From Paraburkholderia sp. Tr-20389 (GTDB lineage Bacteria; Pseudomonadota; Gammaproteobacteria; Burkholderiales; Burkholderiaceae), in contig NZ_JAAGPD010000037.1 in NCBI RefSeq assembly GCF_017104565.1, positions 59,277 through 123,276 of the forward strand: DNA of 64,000 nt, in the 5' to 3' direction. The notes beneath the pieces are model-generated. The model ran no database searches. It was not told the origin of the DNA and saw only the letters and a list, made by a program, of their open reading frames with translations. Shown in pieces: positions 15,445 through 59,890 of the stretch. Every line of letters begins with the position of its first letter. Position 1 is the first letter of the stretch. The position numbers and the translations under genes are program-made.

Positions 15445-15498
15445 CACACTGCTCATCACATTAGAGCCTGAACTGAACACCGCCCGAGGTCGCCTGCA

Positions 15499-43422: not shown

Positions 43423-44082
43423 ATGAAAAGCGTCGTTCGGATGGTGGGTAGAGCAACTGGTCGAGCTGGCGTGGTTCGGCGTGTCGCCAAGCGAATTTTC
43501 GATGTCGTCGTTGCGTCGCTGTTGATCGTATTGCTGTTGCCGCTCTTCCTTGTAATCGCCGTTGTGGTAAGGCGCGACGGTGGGGCGGTGCTGTATGGGC
43601 ATGTACGCATCGGGCGTGACGGCGTTCCATTCAACTGCCTGAAGTTCCGGTCGATGGTGGCAAATGCGGACGCGGTTCTCGAGGAATTACTCAAGCGAGA
43701 CCCGGTGGCGCGCGCCGAATGGGAGCGCGAGTTCAAGCTTAAAAATGATGTGCGCATCACCGCGATCGGGCGTCTGCTTCGCAAGACGAGTATGGATGAG
43801 TTGCCACAGCTCTTTAATGTCGTCAAGGGTGAAATGAGTCTGGTTGGTCCGCGTCCAATCGTCCGGGAGGAACTGCTGCGCTACGGCGACAACGCTTCCT
43901 ACTATCTGATGACGAAACCCGGGATGACTGGACTGTGGCAGGTGAGTGGGCGGAACGATGTCGACTATTCGACACGGGTCTTGTTGGATGTTGCTTATGT
44001 CAAGGAATTGTCTTTGCGCCGCGATCTTTGGATTCTCTTCCGGACCGTGGGTGTGGTGTTCCGAGGTTCAGGCGCTTATTGA
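43423..44082 (+). CDS. Undecaprenyl-phosphate sugar-1-phosphate transferase (priming enzyme)
   Basis: 219 residues, bacterial sugar transferase family: one N-terminal hydrophobic helix (VVASLLIVLLLPLFLVIAVVV, about 28-48), then KFRSM, RKTSMDELPQLFNVVKGEMS, VGPRP and KPGMTGLWQVSGRN. Transfers the first sugar phosphate to undecaprenyl phosphate at the inner membrane, starting repeat-unit assembly. It is the ExoY/short WcaJ-type form without the N-terminal multispan part. First gene of the locus. Confidence 0.93.
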   Translation: MKSVVRMVGRATGRAGVVRRVAKRIFDVVVASLLIVLLLPLFLVIAVVVRRDGGAVLYGHVRIGRDGVPFNCLKFRSMVANADAVLEELLKRDPVARAEWEREFKLKNDVRITAIGRLLRKTSMDELPQLFNVVKGEMSLVGPRPIVREELLRYGDNASYYLMTKPGMTGLWQVSGRNDVDYSTRVLLDVAYVKELSLRRDLWILFRTVGVVFRGSGAY

Positions 44083-44124
44083 TGCGTCGAAGTTTTAGTA
44101 ACAAAGCGGGTTATGAGGTTGTAG

Positions 44125-45300
44125 ATGAATGTGTTGAAACAGGCAAAACGTTTCATGCCACGATGTGCGTTCGATATGCGACGAGTCGGCATCTTGATCG
44201 CCATGCTTCCAGTGTGCGTGACGATGTCTGCCTGCGGTGTGGCGCCAGGCATGAGGATGCAACAGCCGGCGACTCTTCCGGTGAGTACGTCTAGCGCGTC
44301 GACTGACGATGACAGACTTCAGGTCCCGATTGCTGATATCAACCTCGCGTTGATCACACGTCTACGCGAGGATGCACGAAAGGCATCGCTCGATTGGACC
44401 GGGCTGACAAGGGCGCACGGGGCGTATACGGTTGGGGCGGGCGACGTGCTGCAGATTACCGTATGGGATCATCCGGAACTTGCGGCGGCGTTGGGTACGC
44501 AGTCGCAGTCGAGCGCGCGCGCAGCGGATGCTCCACCGGGCTTTGTCGTTGATCAGGACGGCACGCTTCAGTTTCCGTTCGTCGGTCGAATTCAGGTTGC
44601 TGGCCTGCAACCCGAGAAAATCCAGATGATCCTGGTCAAGGCCTTGAGCAAGTCCTACCAGTCTCCGCAGGTGACGGTACGGATTGCTTCGTTTCGTGCA
44701 AAGCAAGTGTTCATCGAGGGAGAAGTTCACGCGCCCGGCTCACAACAGATCAACGACATTCCGATGACACTATATGACGCGATCGGCCGTGCGGGAGGCC
44801 TCGCATCGACGGCGGATCAAAGTCGCATCGCGCTGGTGCGTGATGGGGTTCAGCACGAGATTAACCTGACGGAAATGACGGCGCGTGGCGAGAGCCCCTC
44901 GCACATCGTTCTGCAAAACGGAGATGTCCTGCGAGTACCGGCACGGGACGAAAGCGGCGTTTTCATCATGGGCGAAGTCAACAAGCCTCTATCCGCGGTA
45001 CCGATGAAAAGTGGCAAGCTGACGCTCAGCGATGCGCTGTCGCAGGCAGGTAGCTTGAACTCGGCATCCGCGGACGCCGCTCAGCTTTATGTGATCCGAG
45101 GCGGCGAAGGGAAAGAGCCTCAAGTTTTCCATCTCGACGCCACTTCGCCTGTCGCGATGGTACTCGCCAATCAGTTTGATCTCCAACCCAAGGACATCGT
45201 GTATGTCGACGGTAACGGTCTAGTACGTTTCAGCCGCGTGTTGAGTTTGCTACTGCCTGCGATCAATGCCGGACTTACCGCCGCTATCGTCACCAAATGA
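44125..45300 (+). CDS. wza: Outer-membrane polysaccharide export lipoprotein (Wza type)
   Basis: 391 residues. An SPII signal with lipobox TMSAC (Cys near residue 37), the Poly_export domain (YTVGAGDVLQITVWDHPEL) and two SLBB segments (VFIEGEVHAPGSQQI, VFIMGEVNKPLSAVP). The last residues form a hydrophobic helix (LSLLLPAINAGLTAAIV). This matches Wza, the outer-membrane channel. GAGG precedes the ATG. The stop overlaps wzb by four bases (ATGA). Confidence 0.93.
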   Translation: MNVLKQAKRFMPRCAFDMRRVGILIAMLPVCVTMSACGVAPGMRMQQPATLPVSTSSASTDDDRLQVPIADINLALITRLREDARKASLDWTGLTRAHGAYTVGAGDVLQITVWDHPELAAALGTQSQSSARAADAPPGFVVDQDGTLQFPFVGRIQVAGLQPEKIQMILVKALSKSYQSPQVTVRIASFRAKQVFIEGEVHAPGSQQINDIPMTLYDAIGRAGGLASTADQSRIALVRDGVQHEINLTEMTARGESPSHIVLQNGDVLRVPARDESGVFIMGEVNKPLSAVPMKSGKLTLSDALSQAGSLNSASADAAQLYVIRGGEGKEPQVFHLDATSPVAMVLANQFDLQPKDIVYVDGNGLVRFSRVLSLLLPAINAGLTAAIVTK

Positions 45301-45731
45301 TTGAAAAGATCCTTGTTGTGTGCGAAGGCAACGTTTGCCGCAGTCCGATGGCCGCTGCGTTGCTGAGTGTGACGCCGGGAGGTCACAAGGTCACGTCGGC
45401 GGGATGGAACGCTATGGTTGGCGCGCCTGCCGCGCCATTCGCGCGCGAGATCATGCAAGCACGCGGCATGAACATCGACGCACATAGAGGTCGTCAACTT
45501 GGTTTGCCAGACTGCATCCACGCCGACCTCATTCTTGTGATGGACCGCAGGCAGCGTGAACTGATCGAACGCGAATATCCCCTCGCGCGCGGAAAGATCT
45601 TCCGTCTTGGCGAGCATCGGAACATCGATGTAGACGATCCGTTTCGTCAGCCGCGGGCCGTTTTCGAGCGCTGCGCGCATCTCATCGAAGTCTGCGTCGC
45701 CGATTGGCAGACGCGATTGAAGACATTGTAA
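45297..45731 (+). CDS. wzb: Low-molecular-weight protein-tyrosine phosphatase (Wzb type)
   Basis: 144 residues. The P-loop Cys9-X5-Arg15 is CEGNVCRSP and the acid is Asp114 in DDPF. It dephosphorylates the autokinase Wzc and so regulates polymerisation and export. Overlaps wza in an ATGA junction. Adjacent wza-wzb-wzc confirms the role. Confidence 0.94.
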   Translation: MIEKILVVCEGNVCRSPMAAALLSVTPGGHKVTSAGWNAMVGAPAAPFAREIMQARGMNIDAHRGRQLGLPDCIHADLILVMDRRQRELIEREYPLARGKIFRLGEHRNIDVDDPFRQPRAVFERCAHLIEVCVADWQTRLKTL

Positions 45732-45808
45732 ATATAGAAGCGTCAACGCCGCCTACATGCTCTGGTCGAGTGATGTGGGCGGCGCTGTTGCAAGGAATAT
45801 CCGGTTGT

Positions 45809-48058
45809 ATGATGAACGAAGAGACCCTGAGAACTCGTAATTCAAATGATCGGGATGATGATGGGAGCAGCGATGTCGTTGCGATCCTCGACATCCTCCT
45901 GGAAACCAAATGGACGATCCTGGTAATCGTCTCCGCATTTCTGTTGTTGGGTGTCAGTTACGCGCTCCTTGCAAAGCCAGTCTACCAAGCGGACATCATG
46001 GCCCAAGTTGAGGGTACTCCTGACACGGCGCCGGCCGATGGCCTTTTAGGCGATGTTTCGTCGCTGTTCGACATCAAGTCGTCAGCGGCGGCTGAAACGC
46101 AAGTTCTTGCTTCGCGGCTCGTGGTGTCGCGCGCAGTCGATAAATTGCATCTTTATATCAGCGCGAAGCCGTTACGCTTTCCCATAATCGGCAGTTGGGT
46201 CGCGCGACACAACAACGGACTGACAGATCCGGGTGTCTTTGGGATAGGTGGCTATGTTTGGGGGCAAGAGAGTATCGATGTCGCTGTTTTCAATGTACCG
46301 CACGAGATCGAAGGCGATGCATTCAAGCTGACTTTACTTGACCCGAAGCACTATCGAATTTCGGGGGACGACCTTCAAAAGAGTGCTGAGGGCACAATCG
46401 GCTCGATCGAACGCTTTGACAGCGTGAGCGGTCCAGTGGAACTGCTTGTGTCGTCGGTAACCGCCCGGACCGGCGCTGCGTTCAGGCTCGTGCGAAATTC
46501 GCGTCTGCAAACGATCGAGGACTTGCAGGATCACCTGGACGTGCAGGAGAAGGTCAAGCAATCGGATGTCATCGTAGCGAGCCTGCAGGATACTGACCCG
46601 CTGTGGCTGGCGGACGTTCTCAACGAAATTGGTTCGCAATACGTTCAGCAGAATGTCGAGCGAAAGTCGGAAGCTGCTGCGCAATCGCTGGATTTTCTGA
46701 AGCGGCAATTGCCGCAACTGAAGGCACAGTTGAGCGAGTCGGAAACCATGCTCACGAAATTTCAAAACGAGCGAGGGACCGTTGATCTAAGCGAAGAGGC
46801 CAAGCAGGCGTTGCTTCAAAACGCGGACGCACAGACGCGTTTGCTCGAGTTGCAGCAAAAGCGCGCCGAACTCCTTACCCATTTCACGCGTGACAATCCG
46901 AATGTTGTCTCGGTAGACCGGCAAATCGAATCGCTGAGTTCGTATCGGGATTCCGCACACGCTCAAATCCGTCGCCTGCCGGATCTCCAACGGGAGTCGG
47001 TCGGCTTACTGCTTGATGTGAAGGTTAATACGGACATGTACGCGGCGTTGCTGAACAACATGCAACAGCTGCAACTGGTACGTGCGGGCAAGGTCGGAAA
47101 CATCAGACTCGTCGACACGGCAGAGATTGAGGAGGTCCCCGTCAAGCCTAAAAAAGTACTGGTGATCATCGCATCTTTGATGTTTGGCCTGCTATTCAGT
47201 ACCGGGTGGTCTATTTCTCGCTGGTATCTGTTCAAAGGGATTACGGACCCATCAGAGATTGAGCGTCGCCTTGGACTGAGCGTCTATGCAACGGTGCCAC
47301 TCAGTTCGCATCAAGTTCTCCTTTCCAATAAATCAGAAAGGAACGGTGCAGCAGGCGAATTGCTGGCGCTCGCGTTTCCAGACGATCCAGCAATCGAGAG
47401 CCTTCGCAGTCTCAGAACGGCATTGCAGTTTGCGATGCTCGAAGCCAAAAACAACTTGGTTCTGATAGCAGGATCGGCGCCGGGCGTCGGGAAAAGCTTC
47501 GTCTCGGCCAATCTGTCTGCCGTACTTGCAACGGCCGGTAAGCGCGTACTGCTTATTGATGGCGATATCCGTAAAGGACGACTCAACGAATACCTGGGAT
47601 ACTCGCGTGAAGGCGGGTTTTCAGATGCGATCAGCGGAAGCATTTCGCTTGAGGACGCCATTCACTGTGGCGTCGTACCGGGACTTGATTTCATCTCCAC
47701 CGGAAATCGTCCGACGAATCCATCGGAGCTGTTGCTGAACAGCCGGGTCGACGGATTGATCAAGGAGTTGTCTGCACGCTACGACATTGTGATCATCGAT
47801 TCGCCGCCGGTGCTGGCAGTTTCTGATGCCTGTACGCTCGCCGCGTTGGCGGGAACCATATTTCTGGTCGCTTTCTCAGGCGCGACGAAGCTTGGGGAGA
47901 TTAGTGAATCCGACAAACGCCTGGCGCAGAACGGCATCAAGCTGAACGGCGTCGTGTTCAATGGCATTAATCCAAAACTCGGCTTGTACGGATACGGCTC
48001 AAAGTACGGTAGCTATCGCTACGTCGCGTACGAATACGGCCCAGAACGTGACGCGTAG
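45809..48058 (+). CDS. wzc: Tyrosine autokinase/copolymerase (Wzc type)
   Basis: 749 residues. Two membrane segments (about 35-57 and 450-470) flank a periplasmic Wzz-like domain with a coiled-coil stretch (KRQLPQLKAQLSESETMLTK). The cytoplasmic BY-kinase domain has Walker A GSAPGVGKS (about 554), Walker A' LLIDGDIRKG and Walker B DIVIIDSPP. The last 23 residues contain seven tyrosines (YGYGSKYGSYRYVAYEYG). The chosen start has AAGGA about 12 bases ahead; an ATG upstream (MWAALLQG) is possible. The tail overlaps no other gene; wzx starts shortly after. Confidence 0.93.
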   Translation: MMNEETLRTRNSNDRDDDGSSDVVAILDILLETKWTILVIVSAFLLLGVSYALLAKPVYQADIMAQVEGTPDTAPADGLLGDVSSLFDIKSSAAAETQVLASRLVVSRAVDKLHLYISAKPLRFPIIGSWVARHNNGLTDPGVFGIGGYVWGQESIDVAVFNVPHEIEGDAFKLTLLDPKHYRISGDDLQKSAEGTIGSIERFDSVSGPVELLVSSVTARTGAAFRLVRNSRLQTIEDLQDHLDVQEKVKQSDVIVASLQDTDPLWLADVLNEIGSQYVQQNVERKSEAAAQSLDFLKRQLPQLKAQLSESETMLTKFQNERGTVDLSEEAKQALLQNADAQTRLLELQQKRAELLTHFTRDNPNVVSVDRQIESLSSYRDSAHAQIRRLPDLQRESVGLLLDVKVNTDMYAALLNNMQQLQLVRAGKVGNIRLVDTAEIEEVPVKPKKVLVIIASLMFGLLFSTGWSISRWYLFKGITDPSEIERRLGLSVYATVPLSSHQVLLSNKSERNGAAGELLALAFPDDPAIESLRSLRTALQFAMLEAKNNLVLIAGSAPGVGKSFVSANLSAVLATAGKRVLLIDGDIRKGRLNEYLGYSREGGFSDAISGSISLEDAIHCGVVPGLDFISTGNRPTNPSELLLNSRVDGLIKELSARYDIVIIDSPPVLAVSDACTLAALAGTIFLVAFSGATKLGEISESDKRLAQNGIKLNGVVFNGINPKLGLYGYGSKYGSYRYVAYEYGPERDA

Positions 48059-48071
48059 CGAGTTGCAGAAA

Positions 48072-49304
48072 ATGATACGGCTGAAGGATTCCGTCATATC
48101 GCTCGCGGGCGTGGTCGCGGGCCAAATTTCGCTGTTTCTTTGCGTTTCTCTAATCGGGCGCTCTCAGGGACCAGCGGTATTGGGGCACTTCAACTATCTA
48201 CTCGCGTGCGGGACATTTGCGGGAACGCTGCTGGGGTTCCGATACGAGCTCGCTTGTGTATCGGACAGTCCGCGTTACGCGTTCAATGCACTCGTCAATG
48301 TAACCGTGTTTAGTGCGACGGTGATGGTCGTCGCCATATGCGTAACACTCGCCATGTCTCATGGTGAACTTCTTGCCGTGGAAAGCTACGCATTCGCTTT
48401 TCTTGTGCAGCAGGCGACGAGTTCTTATTTGAATAGTTTTCGCAGATACGATCTAATCGCCGCAAGCCGGCTGGCCATAAATGGTTCGTTCCTGCTGTGT
48501 CTCCTGACGGAGAGATGGACTGGAACTCTACACGGCCTAGATGTGTTTCGGACGTACTCCGTCATAAACGTCTTGCTCACGGTATTGTCGCTGGCTGGTG
48601 TTCTGCTCCACGGCAGACGTCACGGTTACCGGGCTCAGATCGGTCTTGCGTTCTTCTCGGAAAATCGTCGCTTCGCAACCTTCATTCTTCCATCCACAAT
48701 CTGCGGATCAGTTCTGACGTACTCGCTTGCGATCATTATTCCGCAGTGGTTTGATGCGGAAAGTGCGGGATATTTTGCGGCTGCCTATCGCTTGGGTTTC
48801 TTTCCTGTCTCATTGATTGGACAGAGCCTCGGCAGCGTGTTTCGCCGTGATGCAATCGGCGCCTTGGCGCACTGCGATGCAGATATGCTTCTGCATCGGG
48901 TATTCATGACCTACGCAAAATTTCTCGTCCTGATTGCAATCGCTTACGGAGCGGGAAGCGCTTTGCTTTTTTCGTCACTGGTGCGCATCTTCTTCGGTAC
49001 AAGTTGGCGTGGGGCAAGCGATTTCTTTTACGACTTGGTACCGCTTTTTGCGGTTCAACTGATTTACGTTCCACTTTCTCAGATATTTCTGGTTACCAGA
49101 GAACAGCGGCTTGATTTTCTGTTTCAGTTTGGATCTGCTCTTGTATTGAGTTCAACGCTATACACCACTCATATATTGAGCTTTTCTCCGCATTCAAGCG
49201 TCCGAGCGTTCTCGTTCGCGGGTGTCGTCACGATGCTAGTCGGACTCGCGTTGACATATCAGGTAATGAAGTGCAGTGCATTACGTTTGCGCAAAGTGGC
49301 GTGA
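48072..49304 (+). CDS. wzx: Repeat-unit flippase (Wzx-like)
   Basis: 410 residues, about twelve hydrophobic helices, in a pattern of the MATE/PST oligosaccharide flippase superfamily. It begins MIRLKDSVISLAGVVAGQIS and contains SLIGRSQGPAVLGHFNYLLA, the typical region of Wzx. A GTG eight codons upstream is a possible alternative start; no strong ribosome-binding site was seen at either. Follows wzc by 13 bases. GC content drops from here onward. Confidence 0.82.
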   Translation: MIRLKDSVISLAGVVAGQISLFLCVSLIGRSQGPAVLGHFNYLLACGTFAGTLLGFRYELACVSDSPRYAFNALVNVTVFSATVMVVAICVTLAMSHGELLAVESYAFAFLVQQATSSYLNSFRRYDLIAASRLAINGSFLLCLLTERWTGTLHGLDVFRTYSVINVLLTVLSLAGVLLHGRRHGYRAQIGLAFFSENRRFATFILPSTICGSVLTYSLAIIIPQWFDAESAGYFAAAYRLGFFPVSLIGQSLGSVFRRDAIGALAHCDADMLLHRVFMTYAKFLVLIAIAYGAGSALLFSSLVRIFFGTSWRGASDFFYDLVPLFAVQLIYVPLSQIFLVTREQRLDFLFQFGSALVLSSTLYTTHILSFSPHSSVRAFSFAGVVTMLVGLALTYQVMKCSALRLRKVA

Positions 49305-49333
49305 AATTTTCTATTCTATTCTGAGAGCCGTTG

Positions 49334-50536
49334 ATGACGATTGCCGTCGTAGTCGATTCGCTTGAGCGCTTCTATTTCATTCGTCGTCTCGTGAAGCCGA
49401 TCGAGGACGAATGCGATTTCGTCTTTATCACGAGCGAGCCTCTTGCTCATCTTTTGCTCCGACTCGAAGGGCATCGCTCGGTCTATCTTCGGCGCGATGT
49501 TGGGATTCGTCAGGTCTCTACATATGACGCATCAGCGTTTGAGCGCTCTATCGAAGTCTTGAACGGACAGATTGACGTAAGCGTTGCTCGCGTGGACTCG
49601 ATGGCGACGTTTGCCGCTGTGTCGGAACTTTTTAGCGACGGCACCATTGAGCGCTGTGTGATGTGGAATGGACAGCAATTGGTATGTAGGGTCGTTAGCC
49701 AGGCATGTGCGAAATACGGCGTGCGAACGCGGTTTTTAGAGCTATCAAATCTACCAGGAAAATTGTTTGTCGACGATTCAGGGGTAAATGCGCTTTCGAC
49801 AATCGCTAAAAACCCGACCATCATAGATGGTTATCCATTGCCAGATCGAGCGGATCACAATCGCTGGATAGAGGAATATGAAGAATATAAAAGACAACCG
49901 CTCCCTCAATCACGGACATTGATCAGGCGAAAATCTCTTTCGCTACTTAACTACGCGTTGAAGTTTTTGACATGTGGCGTTGGTCGAAAGCGACTCGACC
50001 GAACGCGGGCTAGCAATGGAGCGAGACTTCCCTCGCTAATAACGGAAATAGACGTAAAAGAACTCATCTCGCGACGTTATATATTTTTGCCTCTTCAGGT
50101 ATCGGGTGATACGCAGATCAGACTGCATTCGGATGTCAATAATCTTCAGGCGATCTTGATCGCGCTCAAGTTGGCAAAAGAGGAGGGGCTTGATCTGATC
50201 GTCAAGATTCATCCTGCGGAGAACGATAGGTCACAAATCGATGAAATCGTACACCTCCAAAAAATCCACAACTTTCGGATTGCATGCACTGCAACTGTGG
50301 ATTTAGTCAGATATGCATCGGTTGTTGTAACAATCAACTCAACCGTTGGTCTGGAAGCGATGTTGTATGAAAGACGGGTTGTAGCCTTGGGGCGTTGCCT
50401 ATACAAAGAGTTCGATCATGACCGGTTGATGAAGTATATCCACGGATTCTTGGTGGATGGAATCGATTATTTCGGAACCGATCCAATTGACGGGTGGGCC
50501 GCGAGGCGAACATTTTCGATTGGGGGCGACGTATGA
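49334..50536 (+). CDS. KpsS/Capsule_synth-family protein (candidate beta-Kdo transferase)
   Basis: 400 residues. The C-terminal half reads YIFLPLQVSGDTQIRLHSDV, LDLIVKIHPAEN and VVVTINSTVGLEAMLYERRV then ALGRCLYK, the pattern of the capsule-synthesis (PF05159-type) KpsS/KpsC family whose characterised members transfer beta-linked Kdo. The N-terminal half is unassigned. ATG at 49334 is preferred over TTG at 49331. Its stop overlaps the next start (ATGA). In a Wzy-type locus this family would be unusual unless the repeat unit contains Kdo, which the later kdsA and kpsF genes suggest. Confidence 0.72.
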   Translation: MTIAVVVDSLERFYFIRRLVKPIEDECDFVFITSEPLAHLLLRLEGHRSVYLRRDVGIRQVSTYDASAFERSIEVLNGQIDVSVARVDSMATFAAVSELFSDGTIERCVMWNGQQLVCRVVSQACAKYGVRTRFLELSNLPGKLFVDDSGVNALSTIAKNPTIIDGYPLPDRADHNRWIEEYEEYKRQPLPQSRTLIRRKSLSLLNYALKFLTCGVGRKRLDRTRASNGARLPSLITEIDVKELISRRYIFLPLQVSGDTQIRLHSDVNNLQAILIALKLAKEEGLDLIVKIHPAENDRSQIDEIVHLQKIHNFRIACTATVDLVRYASVVVTINSTVGLEAMLYERRVVALGRCLYKEFDHDRLMKYIHGFLVDGIDYFGTDPIDGWAARRTFSIGGDV

Positions 50537-51060
50537 GCGTTACGATAAGAGGCACACTACGTTTGATAGTTGAGGATCATAGGTGTAATTCGTTCGTTAA
50601 GTCTCGATTCGTTCTTTTATTATTCAGGATGGCGAACTATTTGGCCTCTAGGAATAAATTAACCTTGATCCTTGGGGCGCCTGTTATTGTATTTTATACA
50701 TTGGTATGCGACTGGATAATGGGAATTGAAATTCCGGTGAAAACGCAAATCGGAAAAGGCTTGACGATATATCACGGTTTTGGCCTTGTTATTAACGGAT
50801 ACTCGGTGATTGGCGACTACTGCGTGCTACGTCATGGAGTGACGATCGGGAATATTATGCGCGCCGATGGCACATACACGGGTGCCCCGATTATTGGAAA
50901 CTGCGTCGAGTTTGGTGCCAATTCCATTGCACTGGGCGAAATAGAGATTGGAAACAACGCCCGCATCGGTGCGGGGGCTGTACTGTTATCCAGCCTGGCC
51001 GAGCACGCTGTAGCCGTTGGCGTTCCAGCTCGCGCAGTAGAAAAGGATAAGCGAAAGTGA
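50533..51060 (+). CDS. Left-handed-beta-helix acetyltransferase (serine acetyltransferase-like)
   Basis: 175 residues. Hexapeptide repeats run from about residue 75 to the end (IGKGLTIYHGFGLVINGYSV, IGDYCVLRHGVTIGN, IGNCVEFGANSIALGEIEIG, NARIGAGAVLLSS) and the end is GVPARAV. The N-terminal segment contains a hydrophobic stretch (LTLILGAPVIVFYTLVCDWIMG, i.e. residues about 47-68). Similar to CysE-type acyltransferases found in polysaccharide loci. Role probably O-acetylation of the repeat unit, inferred from context. Overlaps both neighbours by four bases. Confidence 0.8.
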   Translation: MSVTIRGTLRLIVEDHRCNSFVKSRFVLLLFRMANYLASRNKLTLILGAPVIVFYTLVCDWIMGIEIPVKTQIGKGLTIYHGFGLVINGYSVIGDYCVLRHGVTIGNIMRADGTYTGAPIIGNCVEFGANSIALGEIEIGNNARIGAGAVLLSSLAEHAVAVGVPARAVEKDKRK

Positions 51061-52044
51061 AAGTTTTCATTCTGCATTCGGGTAAGGCCAACTACCCAGA
51101 GATTAGCGCGTATTCTGCTGTGCTCGTCAAGCGGGGATTTCAGGTTTTTGACGGCGATAGTAACGAATATTCACGATTCCCGTTCAAGGATGAATGCGTA
51201 CTCTGGTGCATCATGGGTTTCTATCGTACGCATGGCGAAGCACGGTTCATCATTCACGACTATCGCTCGCTTTCGGTGAGGCCTTTTGCAGCCTGCAAGG
51301 ATTGGGTCAAGCGGGCAATGAACGCCACGCCGAATCTCAGGGCTTTTCAGAATGTACAAATGCGCGATGCGATGAATTTCGGAGATGATATTCCGTCTGT
51401 AATTTTGCCGATGGGTGTGCCGGATTGGATATTCGATCTCGTTGACGACGAGTGTGACGATGCTATAGACAAGAGGAGCGTCGGCCGATTCTGTTACATC
51501 GGTGAAATGAGTAGGGAGCGTGGTTTCGATAAGCATGCTTGCTGCATGGCAGGCTTCACCTTGGAAGCGAAAGAACCAGTTCGTGTTGGTCGGACGCCCC
51601 GAACCTGCGATTTACGATGAGTTTAAGGATACGCAAGGGTTGACTTTCGTGGGACGTGTTCTACAAAAGGACGCGTTGCGTATTGTCCGACGATCTGAGT
51701 ACGCTATCTGCTACTTTCCCTATCATCGTCCGCACTGCTTTCAGACTCCTACAAAACTCTTGGAGTATGCCGCGCTTGGTAAAAAGATTATTTGCAACGA
51801 CTCACCGTCGAACAGAACTGCCTCTCAAGAATTCGGGATTCATGCACTCATGGCGGGCCGAACAATCTTCGATAGCTTGCCACTCGACGAATCTTCTCTA
51901 ACTATAAGACAGAATGAACCTCACAAGTTGAGACAGATTGCGTGGTCGGCAGTAATCGAAGATTCCGGCATTCTTGTGCACATCCGAGACGCGGTCGGCA
52001 CGACTGTCGCGCGACGGATTGAACGCGCTGAGAGCGCGTTATGA
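51057..52044 (+). pseudogene. Glycosyltransferase interrupted by an apparent +1 frameshift
   Basis: Begins with GTG (GTGA overlap with the previous gene). The first frame (51057-51620) carries MKVFILHSGKANYPEISAYS and a short mid part, RFCYIGEMSRERGFDK. From there the second frame (MLAAWQASPWKRKNQFVLVG, then FVGRVLQKDALRIVRRSEYA and CFQTPTKLLEYAALGKKIIC) reads as the C-terminal GT-B domain to 52044. Removing one C at 51534 in AAGCATGC joins both into one frame of 328 residues (DKMLAAW). So this is a single glycosyltransferase broken by one extra base, through real mutation, sequencing error or phase variation. The following gene still overlaps by ATGA. Confidence 0.8.
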
Positions 52045-53138
52045 AGATTGTTCAAGTCTTGGAGTCCTGCGCAACAGGTACGCTGTCGATGGTTTGCCTG
52101 ATCGCAAACAGGTTTGCGAACGACGGGCATGAAGTGCATGTGGTCTATTCGATCAGGGATGAAACACCCAACGCACTTAGAACGATGTTCGACAATAGGG
52201 TGATACTCAAGCATATTCAGATGCAGGGGCGCGGCTTGTTTTTTGCAATTGCACGGCTGCGAGCTACGTTAGTCGAGATACAGCCCGATGTCATTCATCT
52301 TCACTCGTCGGTGGCAGGTTTTCTTGGCAGATTGGCGACACTATTCTCGTGCAGGCGTTCGATCATTTTATACAGCCCGCATTGCATCGCATTCATGCGC
52401 CAGGATATCTCGCGGTTTGCAAGATCCACATATATTGCGTTGGAGCGTTTGGCGTCCATGCGAAAGGCCGTATATGTGGCATGTTCTGAAAGTGAGTGCC
52501 ACGCAGTATGGGCTTATTTGCGGAAACGTGCAGTAGTCGTTGAGAACGCCGTATCGGAAATATGGACGTCAGAACACGGTTCGCTTCACCAATGTGGCCG
52601 TGCCTCGTCAGGGTTCCGGTGCATTGTCACCGTCGGAGGCATTCGGCGACAAAAGAATCCTGAACTGTTCGCACGTATCGCTTCAACGTTTCGCGACAGT
52701 AATTTACGCTTTGTCTGGGTCGGAGACGGCGAGGAGAAATTCAAGCAGCAACTCGTCGATGCGGGCGTTCGTGTTACCGGGTGGGTTAGTCGTGAAGATG
52801 TCATTCGGAATCTGGAGCAGGCCAGCATTTACCTATCGACGGCATCGTGGGAAGGGATGCCCGTATCGGTGATTGAAGCGATGCTAACGGGACTACCCGT
52901 GGTCGTTTCCGCGTGCGCTGGGAATGTGGACGTTGTACGTGGGGCCGTGACCGGCGTGGTCTTCAATAACGAGATCGAGGCAATTAACGCAATAAAAAAT
53001 ATTTCGGATAACGACGTATGGCGAGAAGATCTCGCCAACCGAGGCCGGTGCGAAGCGCGAAGGCGGTTTTCGGAAGATCGGTTTTTCGAAGTTCTGATTC
53101 CGCTCTATCTAGGCCGTGTTGTCGCTACTCGAACTTAA
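52041..53138 (+). CDS. Glycosyltransferase, GT4/GT1-type
   Basis: 365 residues, GT-B fold. N-terminal part MKIVQVLESCATGTLSMVCL and VIHLHSSVAGFLGRL; C-terminal donor-binding part FVWVGDGEEKFKQQLV and STASWEGMPVSVIEAMLTGLPVV with the E-X7-E type motif near residue 280. ATG overlaps the stop of the preceding frame. It would add one sugar to the lipid-linked repeat unit. Acceptor and donor cannot be read. Confidence 0.88.
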   Translation: MKIVQVLESCATGTLSMVCLIANRFANDGHEVHVVYSIRDETPNALRTMFDNRVILKHIQMQGRGLFFAIARLRATLVEIQPDVIHLHSSVAGFLGRLATLFSCRRSIILYSPHCIAFMRQDISRFARSTYIALERLASMRKAVYVACSESECHAVWAYLRKRAVVVENAVSEIWTSEHGSLHQCGRASSGFRCIVTVGGIRRQKNPELFARIASTFRDSNLRFVWVGDGEEKFKQQLVDAGVRVTGWVSREDVIRNLEQASIYLSTASWEGMPVSVIEAMLTGLPVVVSACAGNVDVVRGAVTGVVFNNEIEAINAIKNISDNDVWREDLANRGRCEARRRFSEDRFFEVLIPLYLGRVVATRT

Positions 53139-54020
<882 letters not shown>

Positions 54021-54083
54021 GCGGTGTATCGCTGTTACGTTATTTCATGAAATTTTAAGCGAGCTAATCTGGATTCGCAAATC

Positions 54084-55019
54084 ATGCAAGCATTGAACTA
54101 TATCGAGTCCGCGCGAGCCGTCTTTCAGATCGAATCAGAAGCGCTTTTGGGTGTTGCCGACAGGCTTGACGCTGAATTTAATGGCGCAGTGGAAAGAATA
54201 CTGAACTCTACTGGCCGAGTCGTGGTTTGTGGTATGGGGAAGTCGGGAATCATTGGACGCAAAATCGCGGCCACCTTGGCAAGCACCGGCACCCCCAGTT
54301 TCTTTATGCATCCAGGAGAGGCGTACCACGGCGATCTGGGTATGGTCACGCCGGACGACACGTTTTTGGCGATCTCGAACTCCGGAGAGACAGACGAGGT
54401 GATCAAGTTGATTCCATTCTTGCGGAATAACTGCAACCACCTGATAGCACTGACCGGAAATGTGCAATCGACGCTTGCAAAGGCAGCCGATTGTCATCTG
54501 TATATTGGTGTCAAAGAAGAGGCGTGCCCGTTCCAGCTTGCGCCGACGGCGTCGACGACAGCAACCTTGGCAATGGGCGATGCGCTCGCTGTGACGTTGA
54601 TGAAGGCGCGTGGCTTTCGCCCCGAGGGGTTTGCGCGCCTGCATCCCGGTGGGTCGCTTGGAAGAAGGCTTTTGCGTAAGGTCGAGGATGAAATGGTTAG
54701 CACCGAGTTGCCGATCGTCACGGAGGACACGCGCGCGGTAGAGGTATTGCGAACAATGACTCGCGGACGACTCGGGCTCGCAATCGTCCGAAGACAAACG
54801 GGATGGGGAGTTGTGACGGACGGTGATCTACGTCGTGCGATTCAGGCTTTCGGGGATGCGTTGTTCGTCAAAAGCGCGTGCGACATGATGTCGGTTGATC
54901 CTGTGATGGTCCCGGTCGGCACACGGGTTGAGGATGCGTTGATCCTGATGGACGAGCGCAAGATCGGCGCGTTGTTGGTCTTTGAATGCTCGGACGTCGT
55001 TGGGGTGTTCAAGAAGTAG
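54084..55019 (+). CDS. kpsF: D-arabinose-5-phosphate isomerase (KpsF/KdsD type)
   Basis: 311 residues: SIS domain (about 30-190; VVCGMGKSGIIGRKIAATLA, ISNSGETDEV, MPTAST-like APTASTTATLAMGDALAV) and two CBS domains at the C-terminus. Converts ribulose-5-phosphate to arabinose-5-phosphate, the KdsA substrate. It lies 63 bases after kdsA. Truncated slightly at the C-terminus (ends VVGVFKK, a few residues shorter than E. coli KdsD). A housekeeping copy is expected elsewhere for LPS. Confidence 0.92.
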   Translation: MQALNYIESARAVFQIESEALLGVADRLDAEFNGAVERILNSTGRVVVCGMGKSGIIGRKIAATLASTGTPSFFMHPGEAYHGDLGMVTPDDTFLAISNSGETDEVIKLIPFLRNNCNHLIALTGNVQSTLAKAADCHLYIGVKEEACPFQLAPTASTTATLAMGDALAVTLMKARGFRPEGFARLHPGGSLGRRLLRKVEDEMVSTELPIVTEDTRAVEVLRTMTRGRLGLAIVRRQTGWGVVTDGDLRRAIQAFGDALFVKSACDMMSVDPVMVPVGTRVEDALILMDERKIGALLVFECSDVVGVFKK

Positions 55020-55262
55020 GTGCGGGTTATGACGGCAATTTGTCTATAGCTTCGAATCATGCTTCACGAACATCGCAATTTTCATTTCCTAACGTCTCAA
55101 TCGGTAGCTATTGCTATGAGAATAGACGATGCTTGATCATACGATTTACGTCATAGGTTTAGTAAATCGAATGATGGCATTTGATTTTAAGTTTACCGAT
55201 TGCTCTGGAATAGAGGTGCGCACAATGTCCCGATCTGAAGTTATTTCATATTTTTTAGAGCT
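55020..55262. other. AT-rich spacer before the polymerase gene
   Basis: 243 bases of clearly low GC content. No gene, terminator or hairpin was recognised; a promoter could lie here. Confidence 0.3.
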
Positions 55263-56486
55263 GTGAAGAAATATTCGTTTGATTATCTTAGATCAACTTC
55301 GCCGATGCGCAGCGTCGTTCCGTTGATTTTAATTGTTATCTTGTTTTTTCTTTTCCCTTTTGCGTCATTTTATATAGCTCTTATTTTTATTTGTATCGTC
55401 GCGGGCATTCGATCACCTGATCGAATGCTCGTTGCTTTCATTTGCATGTGCGCAATTGTCTCGCTTGGCCCTCTGATCGCTCTTAAACTACCCATTCAAG
55501 ACGGTGGTAACGACAAGTTACAGTACCTTGATTTTATGCGTACGATGCATTCGGTAGGGGTTGCGAAGTATCTAATGCGTCAGCCTGAGATTATTTCATT
55601 TTTATCTATTTATTTTGCATCGTCGCTGGCTGGATTCAGCGATTTGGCGTTCTATTTAATATTCGTCGTATATTTTTCGTTGTTTTTGATCGTGCTGTGG
55701 CGAGGAGAGTATCGGATGATCCCTATATTCTTAGTTCTTTTCATCTCGTCATCGTCGTTCTTTGGAACCTATGGAAACTTGATCCGCCAAGCGATGGCCT
55801 TTCCTTTCATATTTGCAATGATTTTTGCGAAGAAAAGAGGAAAATCGGTACTTTATATGGTTCTTGCCGGTGCGGCTCACATACCTGCTTTACTAGTTTG
55901 TCTGCCTTATGTGGTGCTAAGGTATTTCAATAAAATTATTATATTTTGTTTTTTCGCTATTGCGCTAGTAATATTAGTTGCAGCGAGTGGGGTTGGTGAC
56001 TTTGTGTCTTTGTTGGACGGAGGTGATTCATACCTGTCCACAAAAATCAGTATTTACAATAATTGGGATTCTTATAGTGTATTGGGGGTGGCAATTTTCG
56101 CAATGGGAATTCTTGCCGTAAGCAACATTTTGTGGCTTCTTTGTCGAAAAAAACCGGGTCTATTTCCAAATCATACTCGTCTTTCTGCGCGAAATTGTTT
56201 GATTGCTGTTGATGTTTCAGGGTTGTCACTGTTTTTTGCATACGGTCAAGCAAAGGTATTTGAGCGAATATATATATATTTTTTTGTTATAGCGCTTGTA
56301 TATTTATCCTGTATGCTAGTACGCGTACGGCAGGGTTTGTTAAAAGTTTGGGTTATTTTTGTATTCTTAAGCTATTCAGTATATGGATTGGTAAAAAATC
56401 TGGAAACTCAGTCGTTGTTATATGGGGGGCATCCAATCGATTTTCTTACAGAAAATATTATGAATCTGTATCGGCAGTTTGTGTAG
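55263..56486 (+). CDS. wzy: Polysaccharide polymerase, EpsG/Wzy-like
   Basis: 407 residues, about ten hydrophobic helices, very AT-rich codon use. A periplasmic-type segment DGGNDKLQYLDFMRTMHSVG and GTYGNLIRQAMAFPFIFAMI are reminiscent of EpsG-family polymerases (N-D...Y and R-Q-A pattern). The start is a GTG with AGAG only two bases ahead; MRSVVPLILI at 55305 is an alternative. It is the only candidate for the Wzy polymerase in the locus. Function is by topology and context. Confidence 0.72.
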   Translation: MKKYSFDYLRSTSPMRSVVPLILIVILFFLFPFASFYIALIFICIVAGIRSPDRMLVAFICMCAIVSLGPLIALKLPIQDGGNDKLQYLDFMRTMHSVGVAKYLMRQPEIISFLSIYFASSLAGFSDLAFYLIFVVYFSLFLIVLWRGEYRMIPIFLVLFISSSSFFGTYGNLIRQAMAFPFIFAMIFAKKRGKSVLYMVLAGAAHIPALLVCLPYVVLRYFNKIIIFCFFAIALVILVAASGVGDFVSLLDGGDSYLSTKISIYNNWDSYSVLGVAIFAMGILAVSNILWLLCRKKPGLFPNHTRLSARNCLIAVDVSGLSLFFAYGQAKVFERIYIYFFVIALVYLSCMLVRVRQGLLKVWVIFVFLSYSVYGLVKNLETQSLLYGGHPIDFLTENIMNLYRQFV

Positions 56487-56529
56487 TTGTTTTTTTGGTT
56501 GGTAGGTTAAGAACGTCTCAAGTTGAAAA

Positions 56530-57735
56530 ATGGTAAATTTTAGAGGTGTAAAGCCTGGGGTGTGCTTATTTCAGAAACAATATGCACGGGCTGTTCTTTT
56601 GGGAATTGCTGTAACGTGTGCGATATTGGTGACGTCAACTCAGTCGGCGGTGGCGGATGTAACCCCCCCCGGCGTCGTGATCGCACACAGCTTTGCACGT
56701 ACGGGGGTCTATCTTGGATCACCAGCAATCGCGATATTGCCGGATGGAGCGTATGTCGTAGCACATGATACGTTCGGTCCCGGGTCAAGGCAGAACACCG
56801 AATCACTGTATGAATCTAGGGATGAAGGACGGTCGTGGAAGAAGTTGGTCGACGTTAATGGTCAGTACTGGTCTTCTCTCTTTGTGGATCACGGCTTATT
56901 GTATATCGTTGGAACGAGTGGATTCTCGGGATTGCCCTGTATTCGCAGGTCGGCCGATGGTGGTCGATCTTGGTCGGTTCCACGCGATATTGGCACGGGC
57001 ATGCTCAGCAATGAAGGAAAGTATTTTTCCGCTGCTGTCCCAGTCGTTGTGGGAAATGGTCGCATCTGGCGCAGTATGGAATCGGTAGAGCCTACAGGCA
57101 TTTGGAGCTTTATGATGTCGGCTCCCATAGATAGCAATCTTCTCGACGGACGGAATTGGAAGTTCACAAACCGGTTGAGACCAAATGCGGAGTGGCTTAA
57201 TGGAAGGTTTAGAGGATGGTTGGAAGGAAATGCAGTCGTTACATCGCATGACGCGGTCGTAAATGTGCTGCGTGTTTATTTTAACGACTTGCCAGAGAAG
57301 GTTGCGCTTGTGTCCGTCAGTCCAGACGGCACTAAAGCCACTTTTGATCCTGAGAGTGGGTTCGCAGATATGCCGGGAGGAGGGAAGAAGTTCACGATAC
57401 GTTTTGATTCGCGGTCCGGCCTTTATTGGTCGCTAACCAATTCGGTGGACGCGGGATACGGTGGTTCCAATTACGAACGAGCACGAAATACGCTGGCTCT
57501 TGTTGCGTCTCGGGATCTCCGTAATTGGAGCATTCGACGTGTCGTTTTACATCATAACGATTGGAGTAATCATGGATTCCAATACGCTGATTGGCAGTTC
57601 GATGGAAATGATATTGTCGCAGTTGTGCGCACATCGTTTGATGATGGAGACGCAGGCGCGCATTCCCAGCATGATTCGAACTACATCACTTTCAATCGAA
57701 TCGCAAATTTCCGGGACATTGGTATAGAAAATTGA
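56530..57735 (+). CDS. Secreted sialidase-fold (Asp-box) glycosidase-like protein
   Basis: 401 residues. An N-terminal hydrophobic segment (AVLLGIAVTCAILVTSTQSA, about 21-40) followed by AVADV looks like a signal peptide. Two Asp-boxes S-X-D-X-G-X-T/S-W are exact: SRDEGRSW at 96-103 and SADGGRSW at 141-148. The fold is therefore a sialidase-like beta-propeller, and the substrate could be a 2-keto-3-deoxy sugar. It sits at the end of a locus with kdsA/kpsF, so cleavage of Kdo linkages in its own polymer is a hypothesis only. Catalytic residues were not assigned. Confidence 0.65.
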   Translation: MVNFRGVKPGVCLFQKQYARAVLLGIAVTCAILVTSTQSAVADVTPPGVVIAHSFARTGVYLGSPAIAILPDGAYVVAHDTFGPGSRQNTESLYESRDEGRSWKKLVDVNGQYWSSLFVDHGLLYIVGTSGFSGLPCIRRSADGGRSWSVPRDIGTGMLSNEGKYFSAAVPVVVGNGRIWRSMESVEPTGIWSFMMSAPIDSNLLDGRNWKFTNRLRPNAEWLNGRFRGWLEGNAVVTSHDAVVNVLRVYFNDLPEKVALVSVSPDGTKATFDPESGFADMPGGGKKFTIRFDSRSGLYWSLTNSVDAGYGGSNYERARNTLALVASRDLRNWSIRRVVLHHNDWSNHGFQYADWQFDGNDIVAVVRTSFDDGDAGAHSQHDSNYITFNRIANFRDIGIEN

Positions 57736-57760
57736 TTTGGATTTGACACGCGATCGTGGA

Positions 57761-58333
57761 TCACCGCCCACAAAGAAACGGCGAGTAATATTCGATCGCT
57801 TCCTGAATAGGTACGTGATGCCCGTACGCAATGGCTGACACGCCAAAGATCGTCAATGCTGCAAGAGCTCGCAGACGACCCTGCAACGCGGGCTGCATCG
57901 TCATTTGGAGAAAGGTGAACGTCACGAGTGAACCTAGACACCACCCGGCCACTACCTCGGAAACGGTGTGTGCGTTATCAAACACACGTGCCGTTCCGAT
58001 CATCGCGGCTATCAGCACGCCAAGCGCAAACCCAAGCTTTGTGCTGTTGTCGCGAGAATTTGTCAGGCAGATGACGAGTGTTGCGGGCCATACTGCAGAC
58101 GCGAGCATTGTGTGTCCGCTGATGACGCGAAAGTCGATTGCGCGAATCTCCAATCCGCAGCCCGCGTAAAGCACCTTTGTTACGCCTACGACAAATGCCC
58201 CGCCGGTGAGCAACACAAGCCAATTCGCTGCGGAGCGCCATCCGGCCGATGACATGGTTAACCATGCTGCGCACGTAAGCGCGAGAGGCAGAGTAAGCGC
58301 TGCGTCGCCGAGATTGCTGAGGGTGGACCACAT
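57761..58333 (-). CDS. PAP2-family membrane phosphatase
   Basis: 190 residues, about five hydrophobic helices. Phosphatase motif 2 is Ser72-Gly73-His74 (VISGHTMLASA) and motif 3 is Arg116-X5-His122-X3-Glu126 (ARVFDNAHTVSEVVAG; Glu replaces the usual Asp). Motif 1 K-X6-RP is not intact: K53 leads into VLYAGCGLEIR without the RP. Perhaps acts on undecaprenyl pyrophosphate or another lipid phosphate. Converges with the sialidase-like gene (25-base gap) and lies 40 bases from the downstream regulator. Confidence 0.72.
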   Translation of the reverse strand: MWSTLSNLGDAALTLPLALTCAAWLTMSSAGWRSAANWLVLLTGGAFVVGVTKVLYAGCGLEIRAIDFRVISGHTMLASAVWPATLVICLTNSRDNSTKLGFALGVLIAAMIGTARVFDNAHTVSEVVAGWCLGSLVTFTFLQMTMQPALQGRLRALAALTIFGVSAIAYGHHVPIQEAIEYYSPFLCGR

Positions 58334-58373: not shown

Positions 58374-59426
58374 CTAAGTGTGTGTCGCGTTAGTCATAAG
58401 GTGATTCCGGTCGATGTTCGCCGAACGTATTGCGCTGTCACGCGGTTCATGAGCTTTCCGCACCCGCCCCCGATACTCCGTCGGCGATATCTCCCAAACC
58501 TGCCGAAACAACCGCGCCAGACATTCCCCGCTCGTCAGCCCGCACCGCCGGGCGATTTTGTCCACCGGCAAGTCACTCGATTCCAGCATGCTCGCAGCCA
58601 ACTCAACCCGCGCGCGTCGCAAATATTCAGAAGGCTTGATACCCATTTCAGCCCTAAAGTGTCGCAAGTACGAACGCTCGCTCATCCCAGCCGTTTGCGC
58701 CGCGACCGTAACTGAAATGGCCTTATTGCAATTGCGCGTGATCCACTGAGCACTTTCGTGAATCTTGTCCCTGATCGACTTCGCGCTATCGCGGGCGATA
58801 GCATTGAATTCAGGCAAGCCCGTGTCGGGAATCAACTCCAGCACGCGGCGCAAGACGCCGACACCAAAGTCCTGTCGTACGAGTTCGAGCGCCTGGCGCA
58901 CGGCCGACCGCGGGCCAAGACCGGCGGCACTGTTGAGCGATGAGTCGCCAGACACACCAGTCTGTTTCCTGGCATCGAATTGCCTACCTGCCACCCCGAT
59001 CGCAGAGAGCAACGAATCGCCATTACCAATTGCGCATACCTCGTCGGCCTGACAGGCCGCTTCGCGAAGCCAGTCGTTGAATCGGACGTCTTTCGTGCGC
59101 TCGGACGTCAATTCTCCACACGCAACGAAGAGCACGCGCAGAGAGGGAAGTTGGCTGACCGTCTGCGTCAGCACATCGATCTGCGCTGAGCTGGATACAC
59201 ATTCCCCGCGATCGGAGAGAAAGGCGGTCCGGTAACAAGGCAGACCACCAGGCCCCGCGGCCAGAACCTGATTCGCCTTGTCGAATACATCGACGACTTC
59301 GGCGGCCGGCAACATCGAGAAGCCGTCGAATACGGCGATCCCAACGAAGTGCGTATCGTGTGAAAAATCGTGAACTGAAACACTGTGGCCCGAACTGCGT
59401 GAAGCGTTGTACCGAGTTGTTTTCAT
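58374..59426 (-). CDS. GlxA-type AraC transcription regulator
   Basis: 350 residues: DJ-1/PfpI-like N-terminal domain (FVGIAVFDGFSMLPAAEVVD, VLFVACGELTSERT) and AraC C-terminal domain (VTVAAQTAGMSERSYLRHFR, IARRCGLTSGECLARLFRQV). GGGAGG with 7-base spacing fixes the start MKTTRYNASR, although the frame is open for 87 codons more. Third GlxA-type regulator of the window. It follows the polysaccharide locus and may regulate it, but no target can be read from the sequence. Confidence 0.88.
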   Translation of the reverse strand: MKTTRYNASRSSGHSVSVHDFSHDTHFVGIAVFDGFSMLPAAEVVDVFDKANQVLAAGPGGLPCYRTAFLSDRGECVSSSAQIDVLTQTVSQLPSLRVLFVACGELTSERTKDVRFNDWLREAACQADEVCAIGNGDSLLSAIGVAGRQFDARKQTGVSGDSSLNSAAGLGPRSAVRQALELVRQDFGVGVLRRVLELIPDTGLPEFNAIARDSAKSIRDKIHESAQWITRNCNKAISVTVAAQTAGMSERSYLRHFRAEMGIKPSEYLRRARVELAASMLESSDLPVDKIARRCGLTSGECLARLFRQVWEISPTEYRGRVRKAHEPRDSAIRSANIDRNHLMTNATHT

Positions 59427-59890
59427 CAATGCCTCCCTGCTGCGTATCAGCGTATCTGGCGCGCGCATTTGAGCATTGCTGACGAACGTTCCCGATCGAA
59501 GCTTTGTCATTCTTTTAAGCACGCCCCACATAGAGGCGCAGAGGATACGAAGACGTTTCCACGCGACCAATCGGACAAATCTGATTCCCCTGACAAACGT
59601 TCCGGCGTCGATAGAGAGGGGGCGATTCTTCGAATTGATCTGACAGACGCATTCAATCCCGCGAATTGATGCACCATTCGTGGGCATTTCACAACGATTT
59701 TCCCGGCTATACCGACTTCAACTGGACTGGGCGATGGCGCTCGGGCAGCATCTCGTCCGTTGCATGCACAGCGAATCGAACTTACTTGCAAGCAAGAAGG
59801 CAAGAAGCTTGCTAACTAGTAAGCATGCCGAACAAAAAATTATTTCAGCACGAAAAATCAACATATATCTACCAAAATAGGAGATCTCCA
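59427..59890. other. Intergenic region between regulator and porin
   Basis: 464 bases. CGAATTGAT occurs twice as a direct repeat (59631 and 59662, 31 bases apart), possibly a binding site array. Near the porin the sequence is AT-rich. No supported gene. Confidence 0.35.

Follow-up and report, generated by a model that had tools for sequence, protein, structure and literature searches.

What is made by a polysaccharide locus in which the complete Wzx/Wzy machinery is combined with a protein resembling KpsS of group 2 capsules and with its own genes for the synthesis of 3-deoxy-D-manno-octulosonic acid (Kdo)? The question is raised by 64,000 nucleotides of Paraburkholderia sp. Tr-20389 (the window, meaning the whole stretch of DNA that was analysed), which lie on contig 31 of a 9.0-Mb genome in 129 contigs. 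Positions 43423-56486 of the plus strand hold a complete Wzx/Wzy-type polysaccharide locus, followed by a BNR gene and, on the minus strand, by genes for a PAP2 protein and an AraC regulator. A first-pass annotation of the sequence had recognised a KpsS-like protein, KdsA and KpsF among Wza, Wzb, Wzc, Wzx and Wzy, and both family models and Pfam agree, but the extent then given, 49334-57735, was too short, the locus reaching from about 43423 to 58333. The answer proposed here is that the product of the locus is in all likelihood an acidic extracellular polysaccharide, assembled by the Wzy-dependent route and carrying beta-Kdo in each repeat, of the type that would be represented in Burkholderia relatives by the galactose-Kdo (Gal-Kdo) polymer and the capsular polysaccharide IV (CPS IV) cluster. 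Three genes are central to this reading:

49334..50536, plus strand: KpsS-like protein, candidate for the retaining transferase that would place beta-Kdo in the repeat unit (PF05159; Q255-xxx-D259 and H293-P294)
53175..54020, plus strand: locus KdsA, Kdo-8-phosphate synthase, second copy in the genome (527.9 bits, cut-off 457)
54084..55019, plus strand: locus KpsF/KdsD, arabinose-5-phosphate isomerase, second copy above the cut-off in the genome (TIGR00393, 318 bits, cut-off 203.7)

The KpsS-like protein

As the first-pass annotation had expected, the product of 49334-50536 matches the Capsule_synth family PF05159, at 57.4 bits (E 2.1e-15, cut-off 20) and over profile positions 144-267 of 310 only, and the catalytic motifs are kept. 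It is the sole PF05159 match found in the 9-Mb genome, so that this search detected neither the KpsS/KpsC pair typical of group 2 capsules nor a KpsC partner. Against the KpsS model it reaches 34.8 bits where the cut-off is 600, which places it outside KpsS, and it is therefore termed KpsS-like. Profile searches of the Protein Data Bank (PDB) with the KpsS-like family matched KpsC (6mgc, 1.2e-7) and WbbB (5fa0, 1.3e-5). The yardstick for KpsS-type proteins consisted of 18 of the 20 loci L057-L076 of the order, selected irrespective of neighbouring ABC transporters and with L066 and L071 excluded on account of their long central frames (717 and 551 aa). Alignment of the family to these 18 proteins with hhalign gave 99.7% (E 4.5e-26, residues 96-360) in local mode and 99.9% (E 5.8e-32, 18% identity) when forced to be global, and a FastTree tree separates the locus-type proteins from them.

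The QXXXD and HP motifs are common to retaining Kdo transferases; KpsC, WbbB and KrkA use the Asp of QXXXD as nucleophile and bind cytidine monophosphate (CMP) through HP (PMC10148158, PMC12887879). The corresponding residues Gln255, Asp259, His293 and Pro294 are invariant in all 16 aligned relatives, and the spacing of the motifs is identical in 18 distinct locus-type sequences (a 19th row, a duplicate, was left out). The span from the Asp to the Lys before xHP, counted by eye, is 32 residues, the same as in the KpsC-N peptide given in PMC10148158. The pattern alone is not specific, being found in 17 of the 18 KpsS-type proteins (L070 at an odd place), in the more distant L086 and L091, and in 4/7 other weak PF05159-type proteins (it is absent from L079-L081). 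Glu136 (in 'FLELSNLP') is a mere candidate for the general base; the global alignment pairs it with the Glu of 'FEEGYFRP' in the KpsS-type L057. It is proposed that the protein would be the Kdo transferase of the Gal-Kdo polymer, on a branch of its own.

A probable dedicated supply of Kdo

The genome has two copies of KdsA (a housekeeping copy on contig 90 and that of the locus) and two of KpsF/KdsD above the cut-off (housekeeping on contig 78, and the locus), although with the narrower KdsD model the locus copy scores 326, short of the cut-off of 505. With its own housekeeping counterpart the locus KdsA shares 45% identity, but with the locus KdsA of five relatives 67-81%, and for the locus KdsD the figures are 49.5% and 68-78%, indicating that both are old dedicated paralogues rather than recent duplicates. 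Neither KdsB nor KdsC was found in the locus or elsewhere in the 64-kb window, nor were relatives of GalU and GalE found in the window. The suggestion of the first-pass annotation that KdsB and KdsC are supplied from elsewhere holds for this genome, in which single copies above the cut-off lie on other contigs (KdsB on contig 15, KdsC on contig 78 adjoining the housekeeping KdsD), but does not extend to many relatives, in which the genes are part of the locus.

This was seen in 15 distinct related loci, scored only for the homologues sought in the fetched stretches; the named relatives, among the matches listed, are Paraburkholderia and Burkholderia. The sugar transferase, Wza, Wzc, Wzx, the KpsS-like protein and two glycosyltransferases, GTa and GTb, are present in 15/15, the acetyltransferase in 14 and Wzb in 13. 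KdsA and KdsD occur in 13/15, KdsC in 11, KdsB in 9 and all four together in 8; galU is found in 11/15, and galE lies beside L019. Losses vary: L018 (P. fungorum) is without kdsC and L042-L044 are without kdsB, and L046 and the window retain only kdsA and kdsD of the set. In L023 (B. seminalis) kdsB (15223-16025) is matched in two overlapping pieces and may carry a frame break close to its end. Family models, run on a few of the 15 loci, placed kdsC of L050 and L042, kdsB of L050 and L018, galE of L019 and galU of L050 above at least one curated cut-off. The annotation of B. pyrrocinia BX1, one record matched in a plasmid search, has the same gene series with galU adjoining.

The association was also examined across 65 Burkholderia genomes (assigned to the genus through coordinates common to the named loci; 64 of them at least 90% complete; thresholds 1e-60 for kdsA and 1e-40 for kdsB), of which 20 have the KpsS-like gene. 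A second kdsA is present in 18/20 of these and in 0/45 of the others (Fisher 3.8e-14, kinship ignored), and a second kdsB in 15/20 as against 0/45 (Fisher 7.5e-11, kinship likewise ignored). The distance between the second kdsA and the KpsS-like gene is 3.5-5.2 kb in all 18 genomes concerned. Beyond the genus the gene is sparse, occurring in 16/299 genomes of the wider family (the window's own counted), and at E 1e-15 the profile matched 7/398 genomes of the phylum, two at full length (the genome of the window and one of Burkholderia) and five partially.

It could be argued that the donor used by the KpsS-like protein carries a different ulosonic acid and that the kds genes only boost lipopolysaccharide (LPS). 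KpsS1 of Acinetobacter baumannii (GT118), about 30% identical to KpsS, is the transferase of a pseudaminic acid (Pse) derivative (PMC12887879), and hence the donor is not fixed by the fold alone. Among the locus genes scanned, however, none belongs to a nonulosonic acid pathway, the second kdsA tracks the KpsS-like gene, and KdsA, as well as KdsB in the relatives, exceeds curated cut-offs, so that this explanation is very improbable. Alternatively, Kdo might serve as an anchor, attached to a lipid or to the end of the chain and not to each repeat, in the manner of KpsS, which starts the Kdo linker on phosphatidylglycerol (PMC10148158). This too is highly unlikely, given that neither KpsC nor a second PF05159 protein was found in the genome, that Wzx/Wzy machinery is present at the locus, that dedicated Kdo synthesis suggests a high demand, and that a Burkholderia polymer with Kdo in its repeat has been published.

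The rest of the locus

The gene order in the window is sugar transferase, Wza, Wzb, Wzc, Wzx, KpsS-like, O-acetyltransferase, GTa, GTb, KdsA, KpsF/KdsD and EpsG-type Wzy. Pfam recognises the starter transferase together with Wza, Wzb, Wzc, Wzx and Wzy, the combination that defines a group 1 type Wzx/Wzy locus. Besides the three genes given above, the features are:

43423..44082, plus strand: sugar transferase, catalytic part of WbaP/WcaJ type (PF02397, 208.5 bits; 73% to the B. pyrrocinia locus protein)
44125..45300, plus strand: Wza outer-membrane exporter (Poly_export and SLBB domains)
45297..45731, plus strand: Wzb tyrosine phosphatase (LMWPc, 92.9 bits)
45809..48058, plus strand: Wzc tyrosine autokinase/co-polymerase, start codon provisional (WZC_N, GNVR, Wzz, AAA_31)
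48072..49304, plus strand: Wzx flippase, start codon provisional (PF13440, 32.4 bits, cut-off 23; 54% to the B. pyrrocinia locus Wzx)
50533..51060, plus strand: O-acetyltransferase resembling WcaB and serine acetyltransferases (WcaB model 114.6 bits, below its cut-off of 196; Hexapep 41.2 bits)
51057..52044, plus strand: glycosyltransferase GTa, with one frame break near 51534 (open pieces 51057-51620 and 51520-52044; tblastn pieces meet at 51533/51535)
52041..53138, plus strand: glycosyltransferase GTb, GT4 type (PF13692 81.7 bits, PF00534 77.7, PF13439 53.5)
55263..56486, plus strand: EpsG-type Wzy polymerase (PF14897, 39.5 bits, cut-off 30.1)
56530..57735, plus strand: BNR/sialidase-fold-like protein with, by eye, a hydrophobic N-terminal stretch (BNR_2, 26.2 bits, below its cut-off of 31.4)
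57761..58333, minus strand: PAP2 phosphatase, a conserved neighbour (PF01569, 45.1 bits; adjoins 11/15 related loci in the fetched stretches)
58374..59687, minus strand: AraC-family regulator, possibly of the locus (HTH_18, 67.5 bits; 30% to the B. pyrrocinia locus regulator)

On the other side the locus is adjoined by an OpgC-type membrane protein (41832-42935, minus strand; PF10129, 325 bits), a neighbour by position.

The EpsG-type Wzy is common to the window, L018, L024, L025 and L046, and the polymerase of the Burkholderia main group is of a different family with no Pfam match; with a different type of Wzy the bond between repeats may differ in the window's product. In L018 the EpsG-type gene (103-1428) is found some 2.1 kb upstream of the sugar transferase gene, on the opposite strand. 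GTa is a single open frame in 15/15 relatives but is spread over two frames in the window, and the break may be either a sequencing error in a draft of 129 contigs or a genuine defect. If the latter, the locus might be decaying in this strain and make nothing, to which the missing kdsB, kdsC and galU and a sugar transferase shorter than that of relatives (219 aa, compared with 358 aa in the B. pyrrocinia locus) would also point. The remaining genes are nevertheless open and conserved, kdsB and kdsC are present elsewhere in the genome, and a single break in such a draft may be an error, so that decay is a sizeable minority possibility. The window's own product may thus have a different inter-repeat bond from that of the relatives, or there may be none if the break in GTa is real.

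The Gal-Kdo polymer and CPS IV

Burkholderia pseudomallei and several strains of the B. cepacia complex make [3)-beta-D-Galp2Ac-(1-4)-alpha-D-Galp-(1-3)-beta-D-Galp-(1-5)-beta-Kdo-(2-]n (PMC9899790, PMC9635556, PMC3983119), for the structure of which PMC10448790 cites a paper of 1997. The table of a 2022 review (PMC9635556) gives the Gal-Kdo polymer without a gene cluster and, in the same table, describes the product of CPS IV (BPSL2769-2785) as 'not confirmed'. No gene assignment for the polymer was found in the literature searched, which left subscription papers largely outside. One starter transferase, three glycosyltransferases (KpsS-like, GTa and GTb) and one acetyltransferase fit a tetrasaccharide with one O-acetyl group. 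In two relatives (G083 and G305) the order is galU, kdsD, kdsC, kdsA, GTb, GTa, acetyltransferase, KpsS-like, Wzx, Wzc, Wzb, Wza, sugar transferase, regulator, PAP2, Wzy and BNR. These 17 genes equal in number the 17 CPS IV locus tags, and 6/6 tags with described products agree: 2769 (uridylyltransferase), 2770 (KpsF), 2773 (transferase, PF00534 and PF13439), 2779 (Wzb), 2780 (Wza) and 2781 (WcaJ). In two of three genomes with a CPS IV-like order (L096 and L097) a closer relative of KpsS, 48% to L062, lies about 13-14 kb beyond the BNR gene; none was found in the fetched stretch of the third, L095.

The first-pass annotation had suggested Kdo in the repeat unit, and this is supported by the co-occurrence in the 65 Burkholderia genomes, by the complete kdsA-kdsC-kdsB-kdsD sets in 8/15 loci and by the published beta-Kdo polymer. 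The evidence allows the claim to be made concrete, and with good confidence the locus can be put forward as a putative locus for a Gal-Kdo-type exopolysaccharide, and its KpsS-like protein as a Kdo transferase on a separate branch. In the Burkholderia relatives the cluster would most likely be CPS IV and its product [3)-beta-Gal2Ac-(1-4)-alpha-Gal-(1-3)-beta-Gal-(1-5)-beta-Kdo-(2-]n.

From the gene content, motifs, co-occurrence and synteny observed, we infer the enzymatic steps, the order of the sugars and the identity of the polymer as follows. KdsD and KdsA of the locus would raise the output of Kdo-8-phosphate, which KdsC and KdsB (encoded elsewhere in this genome and within the locus in many relatives) would convert to CMP-Kdo. 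The sugar transferase at 43423..44082 would load the first sugar phosphate, of a hexose that is probably galactose, on to undecaprenyl phosphate, and the KpsS-like protein would transfer Kdo from CMP-beta-Kdo with retention, by way of a covalent adduct on Asp259. GTa and GTb would add the remaining two sugars and the acetyltransferase one O-acetyl group, after which Wzx would flip the repeat, Wzy polymerise it and Wzc, Wzb and Wza export the chain.

Several points weigh against the assignment. The association across the genus is uncorrected for phylogeny, and two of the 20 genomes with the KpsS-like gene (G229 and G049) lack a second kdsA and any locus kds genes. The CPS IV match is built on reported gene names, the DNA of K96243 lying outside the comparison. 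GT4 glycosyltransferases are usually retaining, and both GTa and GTb look GT4-like; the repeat needs one alpha and, besides the bond made by Wzy, one beta galactose, so that GTa or GTb would need to be an inverting enzyme. The window has a broken frame in GTa and a Wzy of a different family from that of most Burkholderia relatives, and no match to the acetyltransferase was found in L046. Finally, none of the at least ten named loci listed comes from a species scored as a GAL-KDO producer in Table 5 of PMC3983119; B. anthina LMG20983 is not marked there as a producer, and another B. anthina strain has a divergent form of the locus without kds genes.

That divergent form was observed in Burkholderia guangdongensis and in the B. 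anthina strain (L024 and L025, the loci of G229 and G049). The KpsS-like gene, the acetyltransferase, both glycosyltransferases and an EpsG-type Wzy are kept, and CMP-Kdo would have to be drawn from the LPS pathway.

It may also be the case that the product is a Kdo polymer other than the Gal-Kdo tetrasaccharide and that the link of the locus to that structure and to CPS IV is a coincidence of gene counts, since the specificity of glycosyltransferases is unreadable from sequence, two families of Wzy occur among the loci and L046 lacks the acetyltransferase match. On the other hand, the nucleotide-sugar genes of the annotated relative are kdsA, kdsB, a KdsC-like HAD gene, KpsF and galU, galE adjoins L019, and the numbers of transferases and acetyltransferases fit, as do the six described tags. 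A coincidence is accordingly considered unlikely, though well short of negligible.

If the Gal-Kdo assignment is correct, a structure without a gene cluster would be joined to a cluster without a confirmed product, an assignment that is directly testable, and a candidate is named for the missing Kdo transferase. There would also be a concrete reason for the finding that suppressors of a Kdo-limited kdsD mutant map to CPS IV, for which competition for Kdo is one of two explanations offered by the authors; the Discussion of that paper does not name the CPS IV product (PMC10448790). The becA-R biofilm cluster was dropped as a candidate: its extracts consisted largely of glucose, galactose, rhamnose and mannose, and the polymer is reported to be distinct from the acidic exopolysaccharide (PMC5507470).

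The BNR/sialidase-fold-like protein

A BNR/sialidase-fold-like gene was observed beside the locus in many Burkholderia relatives, and the window's product (56530-57735) is 49-55% identical to those of six relatives beside the same locus type. The best PDB matches of its profile, over short stretches, were sortilin (3.7e-5) and an exo-alpha-sialidase (5.8e-5). Identity as a canonical sialidase was not adopted, single-sequence PDB matches being no better than E 0.095. The FRIP motif is the site of the first Arg of sialidases; at the expected position the alignment reads, by eye, YLGSP, and the Arg is seemingly absent. A possible role for the protein would be that of a polymer-trimming enzyme, a hydrolase of the Kdo polymer.

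Recurrence in distant loci

Nine distant contexts of KpsS-like genes were examined in fetched stretches of 16-20 kb, and kds sets adjoin the gene in two of them. In L086 (another family of the class) it is accompanied by kdsA, kdsC, kdsD, a GT4-type transferase, a sugar transferase, a sulfotransferase and a Wzy_C-like protein that at 20.6 bits is below the cut-off, and in L091 (another family of the order) by kdsA, kdsD, kdsC, kdsB, a flippase and a Wzy_C protein (77.4 bits). The arrangement is therefore not confined to the locus type of the window. Nor is it general for PF05159 proteins, as kdsA was not found in the fetched stretches of the other seven contexts (L087-L090 and L092-L094). The two sets (L086:4397-12676 and L091:9011-15100) are unrelated Wzy-type loci, one with genes for adenylylsulfate (APS) kinase and a sulfotransferase, which possibly makes a sulfated Kdo polymer.

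A broader proposal would be that a distinct family of retaining transferases inserts Kdo into Wzy-type repeats and is accompanied by a CMP-Kdo cassette of its own in three or more unrelated types of locus (that of the window, L086 and L091), that the Gal-Kdo polymer of Burkholderia comes from CPS IV and that the sialidase-fold-like protein cuts the polymer at Kdo. Taken as a whole this is tentative and rather doubtful.

Comparison with known systems

A close likeness is to CPS IV (BPSL2769-2785), with which, going by reported gene names, two relatives of the locus agree in gene order and count (17 genes for 17 tags, with 6/6 described genes fitting). The window differs from it in being without kdsC and galU, in its EpsG-type Wzy and in having the BNR gene on the other strand. 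The GAL-KDO polymer of B. pseudomallei and the B. cepacia complex, with three galactoses, one O-acetyl group and one beta-Kdo, fits the number of transferases in the locus, but it is known from chemistry, no gene cluster having been found for it in the literature searched. KpsS and KpsC (GT107) of group 2 capsules share with the KpsS-like protein the PF05159 family and the QXXXD and HP motifs; the window protein differs in belonging to a Wzx/Wzy locus with no second PF05159 protein, in forming a separate branch and in scoring far below the KpsS cut-off. WbbB (GT99), KrkA (GT140) and KpsS1 (GT118) are likewise retaining transferases of CMP-ulosonic acids with the same catalytic plan, WbbB being matched by profile only at E 1e-5 and KrkA and KpsS1 being likened by description only. 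GT99 caps an O-antigen and GT118 uses pseudaminic acid; KrkA, which builds Kdo into a capsule repeat (PMC12887879), does so in a group 2 (ABC) capsule. Set beside these enzymes, the KpsS-like protein offers a putative new enzyme for the making of Kdo bonds.

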